64,000 nt of DNA from Variovorax paradoxus. Its GTDB lineage: Bacteria; Pseudomonadota; Gammaproteobacteria; Burkholderiales; Burkholderiaceae_C. The notes under the pieces were generated by a model that was given only the letters and a program-made list of their open reading frames with translations, was not told the DNA's origin and made no database searches. The stretch lies in contig NZ_CP091716.1 in NCBI RefSeq assembly GCF_022009635.1, positions 883,001-947,000 of the forward strand, written 5' to 3'. The translations under genes were made by a program, and so were the position numbers. This document shows, one piece after another, positions 6,139-16,158 of this stretch (positions are counted from its first letter, which is position 1; every line of letters starts with the position of its first letter).

Positions 6139-6214
6139 TTCCGTGTATTGGCTACCGGGCTTGAGGAAATAGTGGTGCGGCTCAACAATGCCCGGCCACG
6201 GAGACACCCACGCC

Positions 6215-7276
6215 ATGAAACCCGTTCCCACCAACGCGGCCGAGCGCCGCGACTACTACGCCCGCATCGGCCCGCTGCACCTCACGCCGCTGTGGGAATC
6301 GCTGCACGCCCTCGTGCCGCGCGAACCGCAGACGCCCTGCGTGCCCGCGCTCTGGCGCTACGACGAGATCCGCCCGCTGCTGATGGAGTCGGCCGACCTC
6401 ATCACCGCCGAAGAAGCCGTGCGCCGCGTGCTGGTGCTCGAGAACCCGGCGCTGCCCGGCAATTCGTCGATCACGCAGTCGCTCTATGCCGGCCTGCAGC
6501 TCATCATGCCGGGCGAGGTGGCGCCTTCGCACCGCCACGTGCAGTCGGCGCTGCGCTTCATCGTCGACGGCAAGGGCGCCTACACCACGGTGGGCGGCGA
6601 GCGCACCACCATGTACCCCGGCGACTTCATCATCACGCCATCTTGGGCCTGGCACGACCACGGCAACGAGGGCATCGGCGGCACGGTGGAGCCGGTGGTC
6701 TGGCTCGACGGCCTCGACATCCCGATGCTGCGCTTCTTCGACGCCGGCTTCGCCGAGAACGACGATTCCAAGGTCCAGCATGTGTCGCGCCCCGAGGGCA
6801 ACAGCCTCGCGCGCTTCGGCCACAACATGGTGCCGGTGCGGCACGACCATGCATCGGCCACCTCGCCGATCTTCAACTACCCCTATGCGCGCAGCCGCGA
6901 AGCACTGGCCCTGTTGCAGAAGCAGGAAGCGCCCGACGCCTGGCTGGGCCACAAGCTGCGCTACGTCAACCCGCTGACAGGCGGCTCGCCGATGCCGACC
7001 ATCTCGACCAACCTGCAGCTGCTGCCCAAGGGCTTCGCGGGCAAGACCCACCGCGCCACGGACGGCGCCGTCTACAGCGTGGTCGAAGGCCGCGGCACGG
7101 CCGAGATCGCCGGCCAGCGCTTCGCGTTCGGTCCGCGCGACACCTTCGTGGTGCCTTCGTGGGCGCCGTTGAAGCTGTCGTCGCCGAACGAAGACGCCGT
7201 GCTCTTCAGCTTCTCGGACCGCCCCGTGCAGCAGGCCATGGGCATCCTGCGCGAAGCCTTCCTTCAAGACGCCTGA
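6215..7276 (+). CDS. Gentisate 1,2-dioxygenase
   Basis: 353 residues from the ATG at 6215, chosen because GGAGA (6200-6204) precedes it at normal spacing; an ATG at 6188 would add nine residues without a good ribosome site. It is a bicupin: the first cupin carries [20 protein letters not shown] with two metal-binding His and the later [11 protein letters not shown]is. The C-terminal cupin ([20 protein letters not shown]) matches gentisate dioxygenases. It opens the gentisate ring with Fe(II) and O2 to maleylpyruvate. The next genes supply hydrolysis of the ring-opened product and formation of gentisate. Confidence 0.95.
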
Positions 7277-7339
7277 AGCCCGGCGTCCGTTCCTTTTTTC
7301 TCTTTGATCGTGTGCCGCCCCGCGCGGCAGGAGCCCCCC

Positions 7340-8044
7340 ATGTCTTTCGTTTTCACGCCTCCTTCCATCGTCGGCCTGCCCATCGCGGATTCCGACAAGC
7401 TGTTCCCGGTGCGCCGCGTCTACTGCGTCGGCCGCAACTACGCGGCCCATGCGCGCGAGATGGGCTTCGACCCCGACCGCGAACCGCCGTTCTTCTTCTG
7501 CAAGCCCAATGACGACGCCTCGGTGGTGCCCGTGGCCGAAGGCCAAACGGTCGGCATTCCGTACCCGCCGCTCACGAGCAACTATCACTACGAAGCCGAG
7601 CTGGTCGTGGCCATCGGCAAGGGCGGCAAGGACATCAAGGTCGAAGACGCCGCCAGCCACATCCACAGCTATGCCGTGGGCCTGGACATGACCCGCCGCG
7701 ACCTGCAGATGAAGATGCGCGAGCAGGGCCGCCCGTGGGAAATCGGCAAGGCCTTCGACTTCTCCGCGCCCATCGCGCCGCTGCGCACGCTGGCCGACGT
7801 GGGCGAAATCAACGGCGGCGCCATCACGCTCGAAGTCGACGGCCAGGTGCGCCAGAGCAGCGACATCACGCACCTGATCTGGTCGGTGAACGAGGTCATC
7901 GCCAACCTGTCGACGCTCTTCGCGCTGCAGCCCGGCGACCTGATCTTCACCGGCACGCCCGAAGGCGTGGGCGCGGTGAAGGCCGGCCAGACCATCAAGG
8001 TGAGCATCGAGCGCCTGCCCTCGCTCACGGTCCGCATCGACTGA
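7340..8044 (+). CDS. Fumarylpyruvate hydrolase (FAH family)
   Basis: 234 residues from an ATG preceded by AGGAG (7329-7333). FAH-fold landmarks are visible: RRVYCVGRNYAAHAREMG near the N-terminus, the metal-binding EAELVVAIGKGG segment with acidic ligands (about residues 80-90), DMTRRDLQ, and FTGTPEGVGAV. It hydrolyses fumarylpyruvate to fumarate and pyruvate, the last gentisate-pathway step. It lies 63 nt after the dioxygenase in the same operon. The isomerase normally acting between the two is not present in the window. Confidence 0.93.
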   Translation: MSFVFTPPSIVGLPIADSDKLFPVRRVYCVGRNYAAHAREMGFDPDREPPFFFCKPNDDASVVPVAEGQTVGIPYPPLTSNYHYEAELVVAIGKGGKDIKVEDAASHIHSYAVGLDMTRRDLQMKMREQGRPWEIGKAFDFSAPIAPLRTLADVGEINGGAITLEVDGQVRQSSDITHLIWSVNEVIANLSTLFALQPGDLIFTGTPEGVGAVKAGQTIKVSIERLPSLTVRID

Positions 8045-8074
8045 GCCTTTTTCCCGATCGCACAGGCCCGCGCC

Positions 8075-9298
8075 ATGACCCTTTCGAAGAATCCCCCCTC
8101 CGTGCTGCTGGTCGGCGGCGGCATCGGCGGCATGGCCGCGGCGCTGGCACTGGCGCGCCTTGGCGTGTCCATCGACCTGCTGGAGCAGAGCGCCACCATC
8201 GGCGAGATCGGCGCCGGCCTGCAGCTCGGGCCCAATGCCTTCGCGGCGCTCGACGCGCTGGGCGTGGGCGAGGCGGTGCGCCGGGGCTCGGTGTTCACCG
8301 ACCGGCTGGTGATGATGGACGCCGTCGACTGCGGCGAAGTGGCCTCGGTGCCGGTGGGCGAAGCCTTCCGCGCGCGCTTTCGCAATCCGTATGCGGTGAG
8401 CCATCGCGCCGACCTGCACGGCGCCATCCATGAAGCGGTGAAGCAGCATCCGCTGATCCGCTTCCACACCTCCGCGCAGGTCGAGTCGATCGACACCGGC
8501 GCCCAGAGCGTGACGGCCGTCACCACCGACGGCCGCCGCTTCAAGGCCGATGCCATCGTCGGCTGCGACGGCGTGAAGTCGGTGGTGCGCGCCAGGCTCA
8601 TCGGCGACGCGCCGCGCGTGTCGGGCCACGTGGTCTACCGCGCGGTAGTGCCCGCCGCCGACATGCCGGCCGACCTGTGCTGGAACGCGCCGGTGGTCTG
8701 GGCCGGCCCCAACTGCCACCTGGTGCACTACCCGCTGCGCCACGGCGAGCAATACAACCTGGTCGTCACCTTCCACAGCCGCGAGCGGGAAGAGTGGGGC
8801 GTGACCGACGGCAGCAAGGAAGAAGTGCTGTCGTACTTCGAGGGCGTGCATGCGCGCCCGCGCCAGCTGCTCGACCGCCCGACCTCGTGGCGCCGCTGGA
8901 GCACCGCCGACCGCGACCCCGTGGAACGCTGGAGCGACGGCCCTGCCACGCTGCTGGGCGACGCGGCGCATCCCATGATGCAGTACCTCGCGCAGGGCGC
9001 CTGCATGGCGCTCGAAGACGCGGTGACGCTGGGCGAAGCCGTGAAGGCCTGCGATTTCGACATGGTCGCCGCGTTCAAGTTGTACGAAGCAGCGCGCGTT
9101 GCCCGCACGGCGCGCGTGGTGCTGTCGGTGCGCGAGATGGGCCGCATCTATCACGCCAAGGGCGTGGAGCGGCTGGTGCGCAACAGCCTCTGGACCGGCC
9201 GCACGCCCGAACGCTTCTACGATGCGGTCGAGTGGCTGTACGCATGGCGGCCCGAGCATTGCCTGGACGATGCGCCCCCGGCGCTTTCGCCGCGCTGA
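8075..9298 (+). CDS. FAD monooxygenase, likely 3-hydroxybenzoate 6-hydroxylase
   Basis: 407 residues. Flavoprotein aromatic hydroxylase motifs are complete: N-terminal Rossmann GGGIGGMAAALALARLG, the middle DG motif (GCDGVKS, about residue 170) and the second FAD motif GDAAHPMMQYLAQGACMALEDA (about residues 292-313). Salicylate hydroxylases look similar, but linkage to gentisate dioxygenase and fumarylpyruvate hydrolase argues for an enzyme making gentisate, i.e. para-hydroxylation of 3-hydroxybenzoate with NADH. It has no Rieske partner, so it is not a multicomponent salicylate 5-hydroxylase. Confidence 0.88.
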   Translation: MTLSKNPPSVLLVGGGIGGMAAALALARLGVSIDLLEQSATIGEIGAGLQLGPNAFAALDALGVGEAVRRGSVFTDRLVMMDAVDCGEVASVPVGEAFRARFRNPYAVSHRADLHGAIHEAVKQHPLIRFHTSAQVESIDTGAQSVTAVTTDGRRFKADAIVGCDGVKSVVRARLIGDAPRVSGHVVYRAVVPAADMPADLCWNAPVVWAGPNCHLVHYPLRHGEQYNLVVTFHSREREEWGVTDGSKEEVLSYFEGVHARPRQLLDRPTSWRRWSTADRDPVERWSDGPATLLGDAAHPMMQYLAQGACMALEDAVTLGEAVKACDFDMVAAFKLYEAARVARTARVVLSVREMGRIYHAKGVERLVRNSLWTGRTPERFYDAVEWLYAWRPEHCLDDAPPALSPR

Positions 9299-12776: not shown

Positions 12777-13337
12777 TTATCGCCGCTCGGCAGCGGCGAG
12801 CAGCGTCTCGATCCATGCGGCGGGAATCGCGCCCGGCACGAAGGTGCCGTCGCTGAAGATCAGCGCCGGCGTTCCGTTGATCTTCAGCTTCCGGCCCAGC
12901 GCGGCGTTGCGTTGCAGTGCCGCCGCATCGCAGGCGCCCATGGCTTGCGTGGGAGCCACGCCGGCCTGCATCCAGTCTTCCCAGCGTTTCGCGCTGTCCT
13001 TGCCGCACCAGATGTCGCGCGCCTTGCGCGCCGAATCGTCGCCGAGTACCGGGTAGGGAAAGATGTAGACGGTGACGTTGCCGATGGCCTTCAGGTCGCG
13101 GTCGACGCGCTTGCAGTGGCCGCAATTCGGATCGGAGAACACCGCGATGCGGCGCTGGCCGGCGCCGTGCACGATCCGGATCGCGTCCTGCAAGGGCAGC
13201 TTGTCGACGGTGAAGTCGCGGAGTTTCTCGAAGCGTCCTTCGACGGGGTCCTTGCGGTTTTCGGCCACCGCGGCGGCTGCGGCGCTCAGCACGCCGAGCG
13301 AGCAACCGGCCAGGAGAAGTGTGCGTCGCGGATTCAT
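12777..13337 (-). CDS. Exported thioredoxin-fold protein with CGHC motif (DsbC/DsbG-like)
   Basis: 186 residues from the ATG at 13337, which overlaps the stop of the upstream fusion gene (ATGA). The N-terminus is a signal sequence (NPRRTLLLAGCSLGVLSAAA), with a possible lipobox at AGC. The thioredoxin-fold active site is C72-G-H-C75 in FSDPNCGHCKRVDRDL, and the cis-Pro loop is INGTPALIFSDGTFVPG. The CGHC pair and the 'DPNCGHC' context match disulfide isomerases of the DsbC/G group, but the dimerisation domain is short. Coupled to a cysteine desulfurase fusion, it may handle periplasmic thiols or persulfides; this is inference. Confidence 0.87.
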   Translation of the reverse strand: MNPRRTLLLAGCSLGVLSAAAAAVAENRKDPVEGRFEKLRDFTVDKLPLQDAIRIVHGAGQRRIAVFSDPNCGHCKRVDRDLKAIGNVTVYIFPYPVLGDDSARKARDIWCGKDSAKRWEDWMQAGVAPTQAMGACDAAALQRNAALGRKLKINGTPALIFSDGTFVPGAIPAAWIETLLAAAERR

Positions 13338-15601
13338 GGACGGATCGCCTTTTCCGATTGCGCGGCGTGTGGCCACAGCGCCAGGCCGCCGGCAAGGCTC
13401 CAGGCCTGCGCGCGGCCAAGGCGGCGCAGCGCCCTGGCTGCCTGTGCGCTGCGGTTGCCGCTGCGGCAGAAGAACAGCACCGGTGTTTCCTCCGGCAGTG
13501 CCAGCCAGCCGGGCAGTGCGTTGAGCAACCCCGACAGCGGCACGGCCCGCAGGCGAGCGTCGGGTGCCGATCCGGGTGGCTGCCCGAGCCGTTGCTCATA
13601 GGGTTCGCGCACGTCGACCAGCAGCATGTCGGGTTGCTGCAAGCGCAGGGCCGCGAAGGCCTCCTGCGTCAGCTCCGGCGTCGTCTCGGCGGTGCTGCGA
13701 TCCACCCGGGCGCCGCAGGCCATGGTCCGGTATTCGGTGAGGCCCAGGTCGCGTTCCAGCGTTTCCTTGGCACTGGCGAAGCCGGCCGCGTCCAGGCTGC
13801 CGCGCAGAACGCCGTCCAGCAGCGGCTGGGCCGCGCTCTCGATGTCCAGCGTGGTGGCGAAACGGTCGTCGTAGTCGTGGCCGGGCAGCATCAGCGTGCT
13901 CGGCGCGAGCGCCTGCGCCAGCACGCGGAGCGAGGGGCCGAATGCCGACGGCGCGCTTTGCGCGAAGTCGCTGCGCCCCAAGGCGCCCGGCATGACCGTG
14001 TCGCCGACGAAGGCCAGGCACAAGCCGTCGGTGTCGTGCAGCAGGTAGGCGGTGGAGTCCGCGGTGTGGCCGGGCGCGGCCAATCGGGTGAGGCGCAGCG
14101 CCCCCAGCACGATCTGCTGCGTGCCCAGAGGCCAGCCGAGCGCGTCCACGGCGCCCGGCTCGACCTGCTGCGCGGGCACGGCCGCGCGGAGCTCGGGGCC
14201 CGAGGATGCATGGTCGCCGTGGCTGTGGGTGTCGAGCACCGCGGCCAGCGTGTAGCCGTGGCAGCGCAGCCATTGCGTCAGTTGCCCTGTCAGCTCGGGC
14301 AGCGGATCGATGACGACGCAGCGCCTGCTGGCCGCATCGGCCAGCAGGTAGCAGCAGGCACCGTCCACCACGAAGCGGGTCAGCCGATCGGGCGGCAACG
14401 CTGAAACTTGCGGCACGGAGCCCAGGCAGCTTGCGCGCAACGATTCGCCGCAGGCCCGGATGCGGGCGCAGGCCTCGTCGATGAAGTCGCTGTCGGCGGC
14501 CGGGCCGAAAGACAGGCGCACCGCCGAGGCCGCCTGCCATCCGGGCAGCCCCATGGCTTCCAGCACATGGCTCGGCTGCGCCTTGGCGGCGCTGCAGGCG
14601 GAGCCGCCGCTCACGCGCATGTCGGCGGCATCGAACAGGTCCAGCAGCAGCTTAGAACTCAAGCCCGGCACCGAGAAATTGAGCGTCGTCGGCAGCGACA
14701 GCGCCGGCGGTGCGTTGAACACCAGGCCCGCAAAGGCGTCCCGCAGCGCCGCCGAAAGGCGCTCGCGGTAGCCGTGCAGCGTGTCGTGGTCCCTGAAGGT
14801 CCGGCCTTCTTCCAGCGCCGCCAGCACGGCGCCGAGGGCGGCGATGCCCGACATGTTCTCGGTGCCGGAGCGCAGGGCGTCTTCCTGGCCGCCGCCGGCC
14901 ATCAGCGGCGTGAAGGGCGCGCCCTGCCGCACATAGAGCAGGCCGATGCCCTTGGGGGCGTAGAGCTTGTGGCCCGAGAACGGGGCGTAGTCGATCGGCA
15001 GTTCGCCCAGCCGCAAGGGCAGCTTGCCGAGCGCCTGCACGCTGTCCACCATCCACAGCGCGGGGCTGTGCGCGAGCGCCGCGGCGATGCCGTCGAGGTC
15101 GCTCACGACGCCGGTCTCGTTGTTCGCCGCCATCGTGCAGACCAGTCCGGCGCGCGGCGCATGGACACGCAGCCAGTCCAGGTCATGGCGGCCATCGCGA
15201 CCGACGGGGATGGCCAGCACCCGCAGGTCCAGCCCCAGCAGCGCATTCCAGTGCTTCAGCGCCTCGGGCACGGCCTTGTGTTCGGTCGCGCCGTAGAGCA
15301 GGAGGTCCGGCCCCGCGTCGCCGGCCCGGCGCCGGGCGCGCAGCGCGCTCAAGGCGGAAAGCACGGCGGTCTGGATTCCCTCGGTCGCGCCGCTGAGGAA
15401 CAGCAATTGCCCGGTGGGCGCACCCGTCACCCGCCGGGCGCGCACGCGCACGGCGTCCATCAGCGCGCGGGCTTTCAGGCCGGTGCTGTGGATGCTGCTG
15501 GGGTTGCCGAAGTCGCCTGCCATGGCCTCCAGCGCAGCGGTGCGCGCCTGGGCGAGAACGGGGGTGGTGGCGTTGGCGTCTAGATAGATTTCCATGCGCA
15601 A
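13334..15601 (-). CDS. Three-domain fusion: cysteine desulfurase, persulfide-dioxygenase-like MBL, rhodanese
   Basis: 755 residues without a signal peptide. Residues 1-385 are a NifS/IscS-like class V aminotransferase: DANATTP start, SGHK with PLP Lys212, and the loop SGGSACSAAK with catalytic Cys336. Residues about 400-630 are a metallo-beta-lactamase fold: H459-x-H-x-D463-H464, then APGHT, VGDTVMPGALGRSDF and LPGHDY, the ETHE1-type persulfide dioxygenase pattern. Residues about 655-755 are a rhodanese with Cys712 in FFCRSGNRS. All three active sites look intact. Predicted flow: cysteine sulfur to persulfide, then oxidation toward sulfite and rhodanese transfer, possibly to thiosulfate. No clear Shine-Dalgarno; a Met two codons in is an alternative start. 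Divergent from a DecR-like regulator. Confidence 0.93.
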   Translation of the reverse strand: MRMEIYLDANATTPVLAQARTAALEAMAGDFGNPSSIHSTGLKARALMDAVRVRARRVTGAPTGQLLFLSGATEGIQTAVLSALSALRARRRAGDAGPDLLLYGATEHKAVPEALKHWNALLGLDLRVLAIPVGRDGRHDLDWLRVHAPRAGLVCTMAANNETGVVSDLDGIAAALAHSPALWMVDSVQALGKLPLRLGELPIDYAPFSGHKLYAPKGIGLLYVRQGAPFTPLMAGGGQEDALRSGTENMSGIAALGAVLAALEEGRTFRDHDTLHGYRERLSAALRDAFAGLVFNAPPALSLPTTLNFSVPGLSSKLLLDLFDAADMRVSGGSACSAAKAQPSHVLEAMGLPGWQAASAVRLSFGPAADSDFIDEACARIRACGESLRASCLGSVPQVSALPPDRLTRFVVDGACCYLLADAASRRCVVIDPLPELTGQLTQWLRCHGYTLAAVLDTHSHGDHASSGPELRAAVPAQQVEPGAVDALGWPLGTQQIVLGALRLTRLAAPGHTADSTAYLLHDTDGLCLAFVGDTVMPGALGRSDFAQSAPSAFGPSLRVLAQALAPSTLMLPGHDYDDRFATTLDIESAAQPLLDGVLRGSLDAAGFASAKETLERDLGLTEYRTMACGARVDRSTAETTPELTQEAFAALRLQQPDMLLVDVREPYEQRLGQPPGSAPDARLRAVPLSGLLNALPGWLALPEETPVLFFCRSGNRSAQAARALRRLGRAQAWSLAGGLALWPHAAQSEKAIRP

Positions 15602-15657: not shown

Positions 15658-15678
15658 AAATAGAACGAAATTCTATTT
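15658..15678. promoter_or_regulatory. Inverted repeat in the fusion/Lrp divergent promoter
   Basis: AAATAGAA and TTCTATTT form perfect 8-bp arms around CGAAA, in an AT-rich island immediately before the Lrp-type ATG at 15682. Position and symmetry suit an Lrp/DecR-type autoregulatory operator that could also control the divergent desulfurase fusion. Confidence 0.6.
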
Positions 15679-15681
15679 TTC

Positions 15682-16158
15682 ATGAAGAAGATAAAAATTG
15701 ATTCCATAGACCGAAAGCTCCTGGAACTGCTGCAAACGAATGCCGAACGGCAGGTCGCCGATCTCGCCGCGCAGGTCGGGCTGTCGCAAACGCCTTGCTG
15801 GCGGCGCATCCAGCGCCTGAAGGAGGCCGGGGTGATCACCAGGAGCGTGACGCTGCTGGACCCGCAGAAGGTGAACGTGGGCGTGACGGTGTTCGTCGCC
15901 GTGCGCACCAGCACGCACACGCAGGCCTGGTTCGACCGGTTCAAGGCCGCGGTGGACGTCATTCCCGAGGTCGTCGAGTTCTACCGCATGAGCGGAGAGA
16001 TCGACTACCTGCTGCGCGTGGTCGTCCCGGACATCGGCGCCTACGACAAGGTCTACAAGCGCCTGATCGCCGACACGCACCTGTCGGACGTCAGTTCCAG
16101 CTTTGCGATGGAGGAGATCAAGTTCACCACCGCATTGCCGCTTTCCTATGCGGAGTAG
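15682..16158 (+). CDS. Lrp/AsnC-family regulator, DecR-like
   Basis: 158 residues, standard for the family. An N-terminal HTH (residues 5-50: IDRKLLELLQ, then LSQTPCWRRIQRLKEAGVI) is followed by a RAM/AsnC effector domain (VGVTVFVAVRT to the C-terminus). The stretch LLDPQKVNVG, the FYRMSGEIDYLLRV motif and the SDVSSSFAMEEIKFTTALP tail closely follow E. coli DecR (YbaO) as I remember it, which senses cysteine and induces cysteine detoxification. Divergence from a cysteine desulfurase fusion supports the same role here. Confidence 0.92.
   Translation: MKKIKIDSIDRKLLELLQTNAERQVADLAAQVGLSQTPCWRRIQRLKEAGVITRSVTLLDPQKVNVGVTVFVAVRTSTHTQAWFDRFKAAVDVIPEVVEFYRMSGEIDYLLRVVVPDIGAYDKVYKRLIADTHLSDVSSSFAMEEIKFTTALPLSYAE

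Follow-up and report, generated by a model that had tools for sequence, protein, structure and literature searches.

A widespread fusion of cysteine desulfurase, ETHE1-like dioxygenase and rhodanese domains with a probable role in cysteine catabolism

The window analysed here, 64,000 nucleotides of the Variovorax paradoxus genome (NZ_CP091716.1, positions 883,001 to 947,000), carries on its minus strand a gene that joins a cysteine desulfurase, an ETHE1-like metallo-beta-lactamase (MBL) domain of the persulfide dioxygenase (PDO) kind and a rhodanese in one polypeptide (Table 1). The fusion is a real, widespread and conserved enzyme, and the comparative case for its role is good. The original prediction, made from the letters alone, had described a single frame of 755 codons holding the pyridoxal 5'-phosphate (PLP) lysine and catalytic cysteine of a desulfurase, ETHE1-like MBL motifs and a rhodanese cysteine; the frame was confirmed and located on the minus strand, and every one of these elements was present, in positions two lower than first given. 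The first codon of the longer frame is a TTG at 15601, but the ATG at 15595 fits the N-termini of the homologues and gives a protein of 753 residues, the length of the best near-identical database match (P0001). Because translation is taken from that ATG, the residues first numbered Lys212, Cys336 and Cys712 become K210, C334 and C710.

All three domains were recovered by Pfam over cut-off (755-residue numbering), with Aminotran_5 at 5-374 (170 bits), Lactamase_B at 417-558 (36 bits) and PF00581 Rhodanese at 653-743 (40.6 bits, cut-off 22.2). In the 753-residue numbering used from here on, the N-terminal domain has the class V aminotransferase fold of a group I cysteine desulfurase, with the PLP lysine in SGHK210 and the persulfide-forming loop cysteine in GGSAC334, and the C-terminal domain has the CRxGxR loop of a rhodanese (C710-RSGNRS). 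Since it scored under the curated equivalog cut-offs for NifS (255.7 against 530.75), IscS (177.5 against 643.2) and DndA (209.7 against 480), the desulfurase represents a distinct subfamily that is neither NifS, IscS nor DndA.

Table 1. Features of the fusion gene and its immediate surroundings (positions in the window)
Feature	Position	Strand	Details
Cysteine desulfurase/persulfide dioxygenase/rhodanese fusion gene	13334..15595	minus	753 aa; ATG 15595; TGA 13334-13336
Group I (NifS/IscS-type) cysteine desulfurase domain	14426..15595	minus	residues 1-390; K210 codon 14966-14968; C334 codon 14594-14596
ETHE1-like MBL (PDO) domain	13796..14413	minus	residues 395-600
PDO-domain codons	H457 14225-14227; H510 14066-14068; D532 14000-14002	minus	
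Rhodanese domain	13361..13675	minus	residues 641-745; PF00581; C710 codon 13466-13468, loop CRSGNRS
DsbC/DsbG-like thioredoxin-fold gene	12777..13337	minus	CGHC motif; start overlaps fusion stop by 4 bp (ATGA)
Lrp/AsnC-family regulator gene, DecR/CyuR (cysteine-sensing) type	15682..16158	plus	divergent from fusion gene
Inverted repeat AAATAGAA-TTTCG-TTCTATTT	15658..15678		candidate operator in 86-bp divergent intergenic region

The middle domain contains H457-S-H459-G-D461-H462, H510, D532, GRSDF at 540-544 and H573-D-Y, and shows, on an MBL fold, the 2-His-1-Asp mononuclear iron triad and GRTDF-like motif that mark ETHE1-type PDOs. We take H457, H510 and D532 to be the positions aligned with the PDO iron triad. 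In the portion of PMC6060420 available, the iron ligands of PDO are given as two His and one Asp. An AlphaFold2 model from an 88-sequence alignment had a mean predicted local distance difference test (pLDDT) score of 88.0 and a predicted template modelling (pTM) score of 0.88; because one domain filled the list of matches in whole-protein fold searches, where those listed were desulfurases and their kin only, the C-terminal half was folded separately. Over the MBL and rhodanese domains the best match in the PDB was BpPRF, a PDO-rhodanese fusion (PRF; 5VE3-5VE5), with which both domains and a linker Cys-Gly align, and the N-terminal desulfurase sets the window protein apart from the PRF family. 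ETHE1 and bacterial PDO (4CHL, 4YSB), which are stand-alone proteins, gave 27-33% identity in structural alignments.

A single frame of this kind could have arisen if an error in sequencing or assembly had fused distinct genes, and homologous records speak directly to this. The 120 best protein matches are 743-815 aa long, share 72-99% identity with the query and all possess the three Pfam domains, and a second search with a gammaproteobacterial query listed matches of 727-792 aa in Shewanella, Pseudoalteromonas, Gallaecimonas, Colwellia, Psychrobium and others. Precomputed Pfam annotation of the best 120 from that second search showed all three domains in 97, no MBL in 22 and no rhodanese in 1, while the middle domain's seven metal-site residues were present in all 117 distinct sequences among them. 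The same architecture recurs in Burkholderiales and in Shewanella-like Gammaproteobacteria. Because intact homologues of identical architecture, at 45-99% identity, occur in many other records, a joining artefact is refuted, and we regard it as vanishingly improbable. Separately, the homologue in Variovorax sp. E3 (L009, 4001-6258; 91% identical) has its frame broken near residue 135 into two pieces in different frames, and is either a pseudogene or a sequencing error.

A species-level scan, with one genome per species, yielded 416 loci with a relative, and the best 80 of these were analysed; their titles were mostly those of Burkholderiales (Variovorax, Roseateles/Pelomonas, Comamonas, Acidovorax), the remainder being metagenome-assembled genomes with broader or other names. 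Even sampling of the family gave a strong match to the fusion in 47 of 299 genomes (E <= 1e-100), even sampling of the phylum gave one in 10 of 398 (E <= 1e-75), and the order sample gave a near full-length match in 2 of 150.

The residues of the two outer domains proved invariant, in that the desulfurase lysine and cysteine and the rhodanese cysteine occur in all 338 distinct homologues. The middle domain, in contrast, has a full set of its seven metal-site residues in 298, has an incomplete (decayed) set in 23 and is itself missing in 17, the last being proteins of 488-540 aa; the figure of 298 is skewed toward intact proteins because the database sets (P0001-P0240) were drawn as the best matches of the window protein or of L086, and the window and loci alone gave 71 intact, 23 decayed and 17 absent. 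From the count and the tree we dropped L009, for its broken frame, and L063, at a contig end; L086-L094 (the same loci as L126-L134) and 18 identical sequences were removed from the count, and 18 near-identical rows from the tree. Mean identity to the window protein in 21 decayed rows was 36% over the middle core, where aligned, and 77% over the desulfurase, as compared with 68% and 80% in 64 intact rows. In each of two genomes, G211 (= G824) and G819, an intact fusion coexists with a decayed one and with a separate PDO.

The tree, built by a quick method, comprises 101 rows (69 with the middle domain intact, 16 with it decayed and 16 without it) and uses no columns but those of the desulfurase and rhodanese; it includes several long branches and was rooted by choice on the gammaproteobacterial group. 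On it the intact/not-intact character requires 10 changes, and strong branch support makes at least 5 of these unavoidable. Since intact proteins fall on both sides of the root, our reading of these sequences is that the ancestor had three domains and that the dioxygenase domain decayed or was lost repeatedly; the earliest branches on the Burkholderiales side, eight domain-less rows and the decayed L133, count against this, and the same tree may instead reflect loss followed by regain. A tree of the middle domain itself, which has two long rows and 11 separate PDO-rhodaneses as its sole outgroup, split 32 fusions (18 from Burkholderiales, 14 gammaproteobacterial) from those 11 by one fully supported branch. 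Given this split, and given that C414, C445 and C627 are invariant in both groups (88-row alignment), the middle domain appears to have a single origin.

The domain-less members connect the family to an enzyme already in print. CD-Rhd of Pseudorhodoferax sp. Leaf274 (WP_056898193.1; Selles et al. 2022, PMC8931425) is described, in the part of that paper available, as a PLP-containing homodimer made of a desulfurase and a C-terminal rhodanese, with sulfur relayed experimentally from Cys334 to the rhodanese Cys466. The same part reports a kcat/KM of 2.2e4 M-1 s-1 with dithiothreitol, the formation of 7600 nmol sulfide/min/mg and an approximately 10-fold lower efficiency of the C466S variant with glutathione (GSH), and its authors call the enzyme the most efficient cysteine desulfurase so far characterised (PMC8931425). 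Two domain-less homologues, L097 and L098, have their cysteines at exactly 334 and 466 and desulfurase domains 76-77% identical to that of the window protein. CD-Rhd lacks the dioxygenase domain that the window protein has, and in the latter the desulfurase is not followed directly by the rhodanese, as it is in CD-Rhd, but by the PDO domain; by the tree the two architectures belong to one gene family. Given the cysteine positions of L097 and L098, the window protein is in all likelihood the oxygenase-bearing form of the CD-Rhd family. The original prediction had held the addition of a desulfurase to be unusual, an opinion that the wide distribution of the three-domain form and the published desulfurase-rhodanese fusion do not bear out; in literature searches that covered few subscription journals, no listed paper was recognised as dealing with the dioxygenase-bearing form.

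If the middle domain acts as a PDO, genomes that have lost it might be expected to encode the activity elsewhere. We searched with a 181-residue stretch of MxPDO as query, which separated a class of matches scoring at least 131 bits, counted as separate PDOs, from all others at 93 bits or less. A separate PDO was present in 30 of 35 genomes lacking an intact domain and in 7 of 40 possessing one (Fisher p 2e-9; here as in every Fisher test, close relatives count as separate genomes). This table of 75 genomes assigns one architecture to each and excludes G211 (= G824), G819, 13 repeated genomes and that of L009; the first 46 genomes gave 22/26 against 5/20, and 7 of 20 related fusion-less genomes had a separate PDO. 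On the fusion gene tree a Pagel-type dependent model was preferred to the independent one (likelihood ratio 27.0, 4 degrees of freedom, p 2e-5), also with irreversible loss (26.6, 3 degrees of freedom). Each of the 11 strong separate PDO genes fetched encodes an MBL domain and a C-terminal rhodanese over Pfam cut-offs. In the window's own genome the same query found no second strong match. As a control, the divergent regulator described below was not associated with domain loss (15/26 vs 13/20, p 0.76).

One could still suppose that the middle domain is a glyoxalase II-like hydrolase, or simply a scaffold, rather than a PDO. The curated GSH_gloB (glyoxalase II) model, at 60.3 bits (cut-off 200.8), indeed outscored the curated PDO/Blh (Blh/SDO) model, at 39.6 bits (cut-off 625), with both under cut-off, and the 23 decayed copies among the 338 homologues retain C390, C414 and C445, which lie outside the known active sites, in 20, 22 and 20 cases, respectively, as compared with only 3 for C627. 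Both fold and sequence, however, place the domain nearer to ETHE1/PDO structures than to glyoxalase II, the decayed copies occur mostly in genomes with a separate PDO, and three proteins (L128, L134 and L072) have lost D461/H462 yet keep H457, H510 and D532, the pattern expected of a mononuclear iron site from which second-site residues have gone. A hydrolase or scaffold thus seems to us quite improbable, and a glyoxalase II identity is the less likely one given the nearer PDO structures and the GloB score under cut-off. Because the fold is ETHE1/PDO-like and most genomes in which the domain is absent or decayed have a separate PDO, the middle domain probably works as a PDO in cells.

The divergent gene next to the fusion may offer an indication of when the enzyme is made. 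Its product is 50% identical to E. coli DecR/CyuR, as compared with 34% for Lrp and 28% for AsnC, and is itself the best match of DecR among 15 paralogues in its own genome (159 bits, next 106), making DecR, rather than Lrp or AsnC, its reciprocal best match. To our knowledge, E. coli has only these three Lrp/AsnC proteins. A relative of the regulator adjoins the fusion at 74 of 109 loci, repeated genomes included. In 67 of these it is divergent and upstream (once at a distance of 3.4 kb), in 5 it lies upstream in the same orientation as the fusion, and in 2 it is downstream. Close relatives (E <= 1e-40) were found in 28 of 46 fusion genomes and in none of 20 fusion-less controls (Fisher p 1e-6), the controls being three genomes of the same genus plus 17 taken from the top of the family listing, not matched to the fusion genomes. 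Of the 28 relatives, 23 are no more than 300 bp from the fusion, one is 3.4 kb away and four sit on a different contig; the relative in G364 carries a stop codon. Clustering of open reading frames from the best 80 loci revealed no family besides the regulator in most loci. According to PMC9040844 and PMC11408624, enterobacterial CyuR senses cysteine, is activated by it and regulates its catabolism, switching on the desulfidase operon cyuPA; the desulfidases under its control differ between species. A regulator of this type suggests a function in cysteine catabolism or detoxification.

A candidate operator also recurs among the intergenic regions. The palindrome GAAN5TTC occurred in 20 of 64 thinned intergenic regions, as compared with a mean of 3.25 and a maximum of 9 in 500 shuffles, and the spacer of 5 stood out among spacers of 2-9; in 16 copies close to the start of the regulator gene, the symmetry extended to 23 of the 32 outer base pairs. 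In the 4-kb decR locus of E. coli there is one GAAN5TTC upstream of decR, with 1.05 expected.

Taken with the enzymology of the two-domain relative, these data lead us to favour, with some confidence, a cysteine-induced catabolic (detoxifying) enzyme that would carry cysteine sulfur through persulfide to sulfite or thiosulfate. The desulfurase would convert L-cysteine to alanine and leave a persulfide on C334, from which the sulfur would move to rhodanese C710, both steps having been shown on the two-domain homologue. By analogy with the PDO and PDO-rhodanese families, the rhodanese would then pass the sulfur to GSH or a similar thiol to give the glutathione persulfide (GSSH), and, as in PDO, PRF and Blh (for Blh, PMC5823870), the non-haem iron site at H457/H510/D532 would oxidise the persulfide with O2 to sulfite. 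The rhodanese may further join sulfite and sulfane sulfur into thiosulfate, again as in those families. Under the DecR/CyuR-type regulator, presumably reading cysteine, the gene would be cysteine-inducible by way of the palindrome, and where the domain has been lost a separate PDO (a PDO-rhodanese in all examined) would usually take over the oxidation, as their co-occurrence suggests. Because it adjoins an E. coli-like cysteine-sensing switch, the fusion probably burns surplus cysteine without releasing toxic sulfide. The original prediction, that one enzyme channels cysteine sulfur through persulfide to sulfite or thiosulfate, is partly supported, by the three intact active sites, the relay of the two-domain relative and the PDO-like middle domain; transfer within one molecule, the oxidised products and the sparing of free sulfide are its predicted features.

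It is also conceivable that the fusion supplies sulfur and that the dioxygenase is a safety valve, the core delivering persulfide to acceptors, for tRNA thiolation, for protein persulfidation or for thiosulfate assimilation, while the oxygenase burns only surplus sulfane sulfur. The dioxygenase domain comes and goes around an invariant set of core residues, and in a clade without an intact domain the next gene resembles TrhO, a rhodanese-fold tRNA U34 hydroxylase, on the same strand and overlapping or within 25 bp (e.g. L120:2805-3641). The L120 gene exceeds the NCBIfam cut-off for the O2-dependent tRNA U34 hydroxylase and the others were identified by their resemblance to the L120 gene. A downstream copy was present in 20 rows, three of which repeat loci already among them; the domain has been lost in 19, and in the single intact row the copy lies 247 bp away. 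The CD-Rhd authors themselves, in the portion of PMC8931425 available, proposed that the enzyme persulfidates target proteins or produces H2S and/or low-molecular-weight persulfides, and left the role open; that portion does not contain the words dioxygenase, catabolism, detoxification, Lrp or operon. BpPRF, too, is assigned to sulfur assimilation by the title of Motl 2017, as cited in the part of PMC6060420 available. Against supply stand the cysteine-sensing catabolic type of the accompanying regulator, the very high turnover of CD-Rhd (PMC8931425, in part), the coincidence of domain absence with a separate PDO, and the presence in the same genome of another desulfurase-like gene (32% identical over 3-381). 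On balance supply appears rather unlikely as the primary function, and we retain the catabolic role.

Several observations nevertheless weigh against that role, besides the PDO/Blh score lying below that of GloB. Catalysis by the three-domain form is a prediction, the enzymology coming from the two-domain homologue alone, and CD-Rhd freed H2S in assays with reductant (PMC8931425, in the part available). The independent-pairs test offered 3 supported contrasts, with a mean of 2.5 in the predicted direction and 0 in the opposite one, and was not significant (p 0.25). Five of the 35 not-intact genomes lack a separate PDO, as does, in addition, G056, whose decayed fusion is accompanied by a weak match only; 7 of the 40 intact-domain genomes do hold one; and weaker matches, as in the intact G179, G303 and the genome of L062 (36-42% identity, 69-82 bits), were scored as no PDO. 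The regulator was not found at 1e-40 in 18 of 46 fusion genomes, and eight gammaproteobacterial fusions, from another order, had no such neighbour in 1.5 kb flanks or within 500 bp upstream, nor did inspection of gammaproteobacterial flanks by eye disclose any shared neighbour; the decayed fusion of G056 does have a DecR/CyuR-type neighbour. The published motif of E. coli CyuR is unlike GAAN5TTC (PMC11408624, in part), and the palindrome is absent from the E. coli cyuP promoter.

A more specific form of the catabolic proposal can be put forward tentatively, as a possibility to which we would give rather less than even weight. The single polypeptide could be a dedicated aerobic cysteine-to-sulfite enzyme under CyuR-type control, replacing H2S-releasing desulfidases, in which sulfur passes from C334 to C710, to an acceptor thiol and to iron without ever leaving the protein; C390, C414 and C445 of decayed domains would be a retained sulfur-relay or assembly element, and the two-domain CD-Rhd enzymes would descend from the fusion, another protein having taken over their oxygenase step.

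CstB of S. aureus is likewise a PDO joined to a sulfurtransferase domain, and CstR senses sulfide/polysulfide. Blh, according to the available part of PMC5823870, has a PDO domain joined to a sulfurtransferase domain, and BigR is a sulfide/polysulfide-sensing regulator. Both CstB and Blh differ from the window protein, since they have no desulfurase and answer to sulfide/polysulfide-sensing regulators, whereas the window has a DecR/CyuR-type regulator of the cysteine-sensing type. The cysteine desulfidases CyuA and CdsH form similar products. For CyuA these are H2S, pyruvate and ammonium, in the part of the source available, and both serve cysteine catabolism under a DecR/CyuR regulator, as does the proposed role of the fusion (PMC9040844, in part); the predicted products of the window enzyme are instead alanine and oxidised sulfur. 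For CD-Rhd, whose role its authors left open and on which the CyReB biosensor is based (PMC12319549), the proposal offers a testable physiological function, aerobic and sulfide-sparing cysteine catabolism under a CyuR-type regulator, and the intact, decayed and deleted dioxygenase domains form a natural series for asking when the fusion of successive enzymes pays.

Immediately downstream, the DsbC-like gene was considered as a general component of the system and rejected, a relative being found in only 6 of the best 80 loci, all six titled Variovorax; given this restriction it is probably inessential to the system. Elsewhere in the window, at 6188-9298, genes for gentisate 1,2-dioxygenase, a fumarylacetoacetate-hydrolase-family protein and 3-hydroxybenzoate 6-monooxygenase follow one another, and this is likely a 3-hydroxybenzoate/gentisate degradation cluster.

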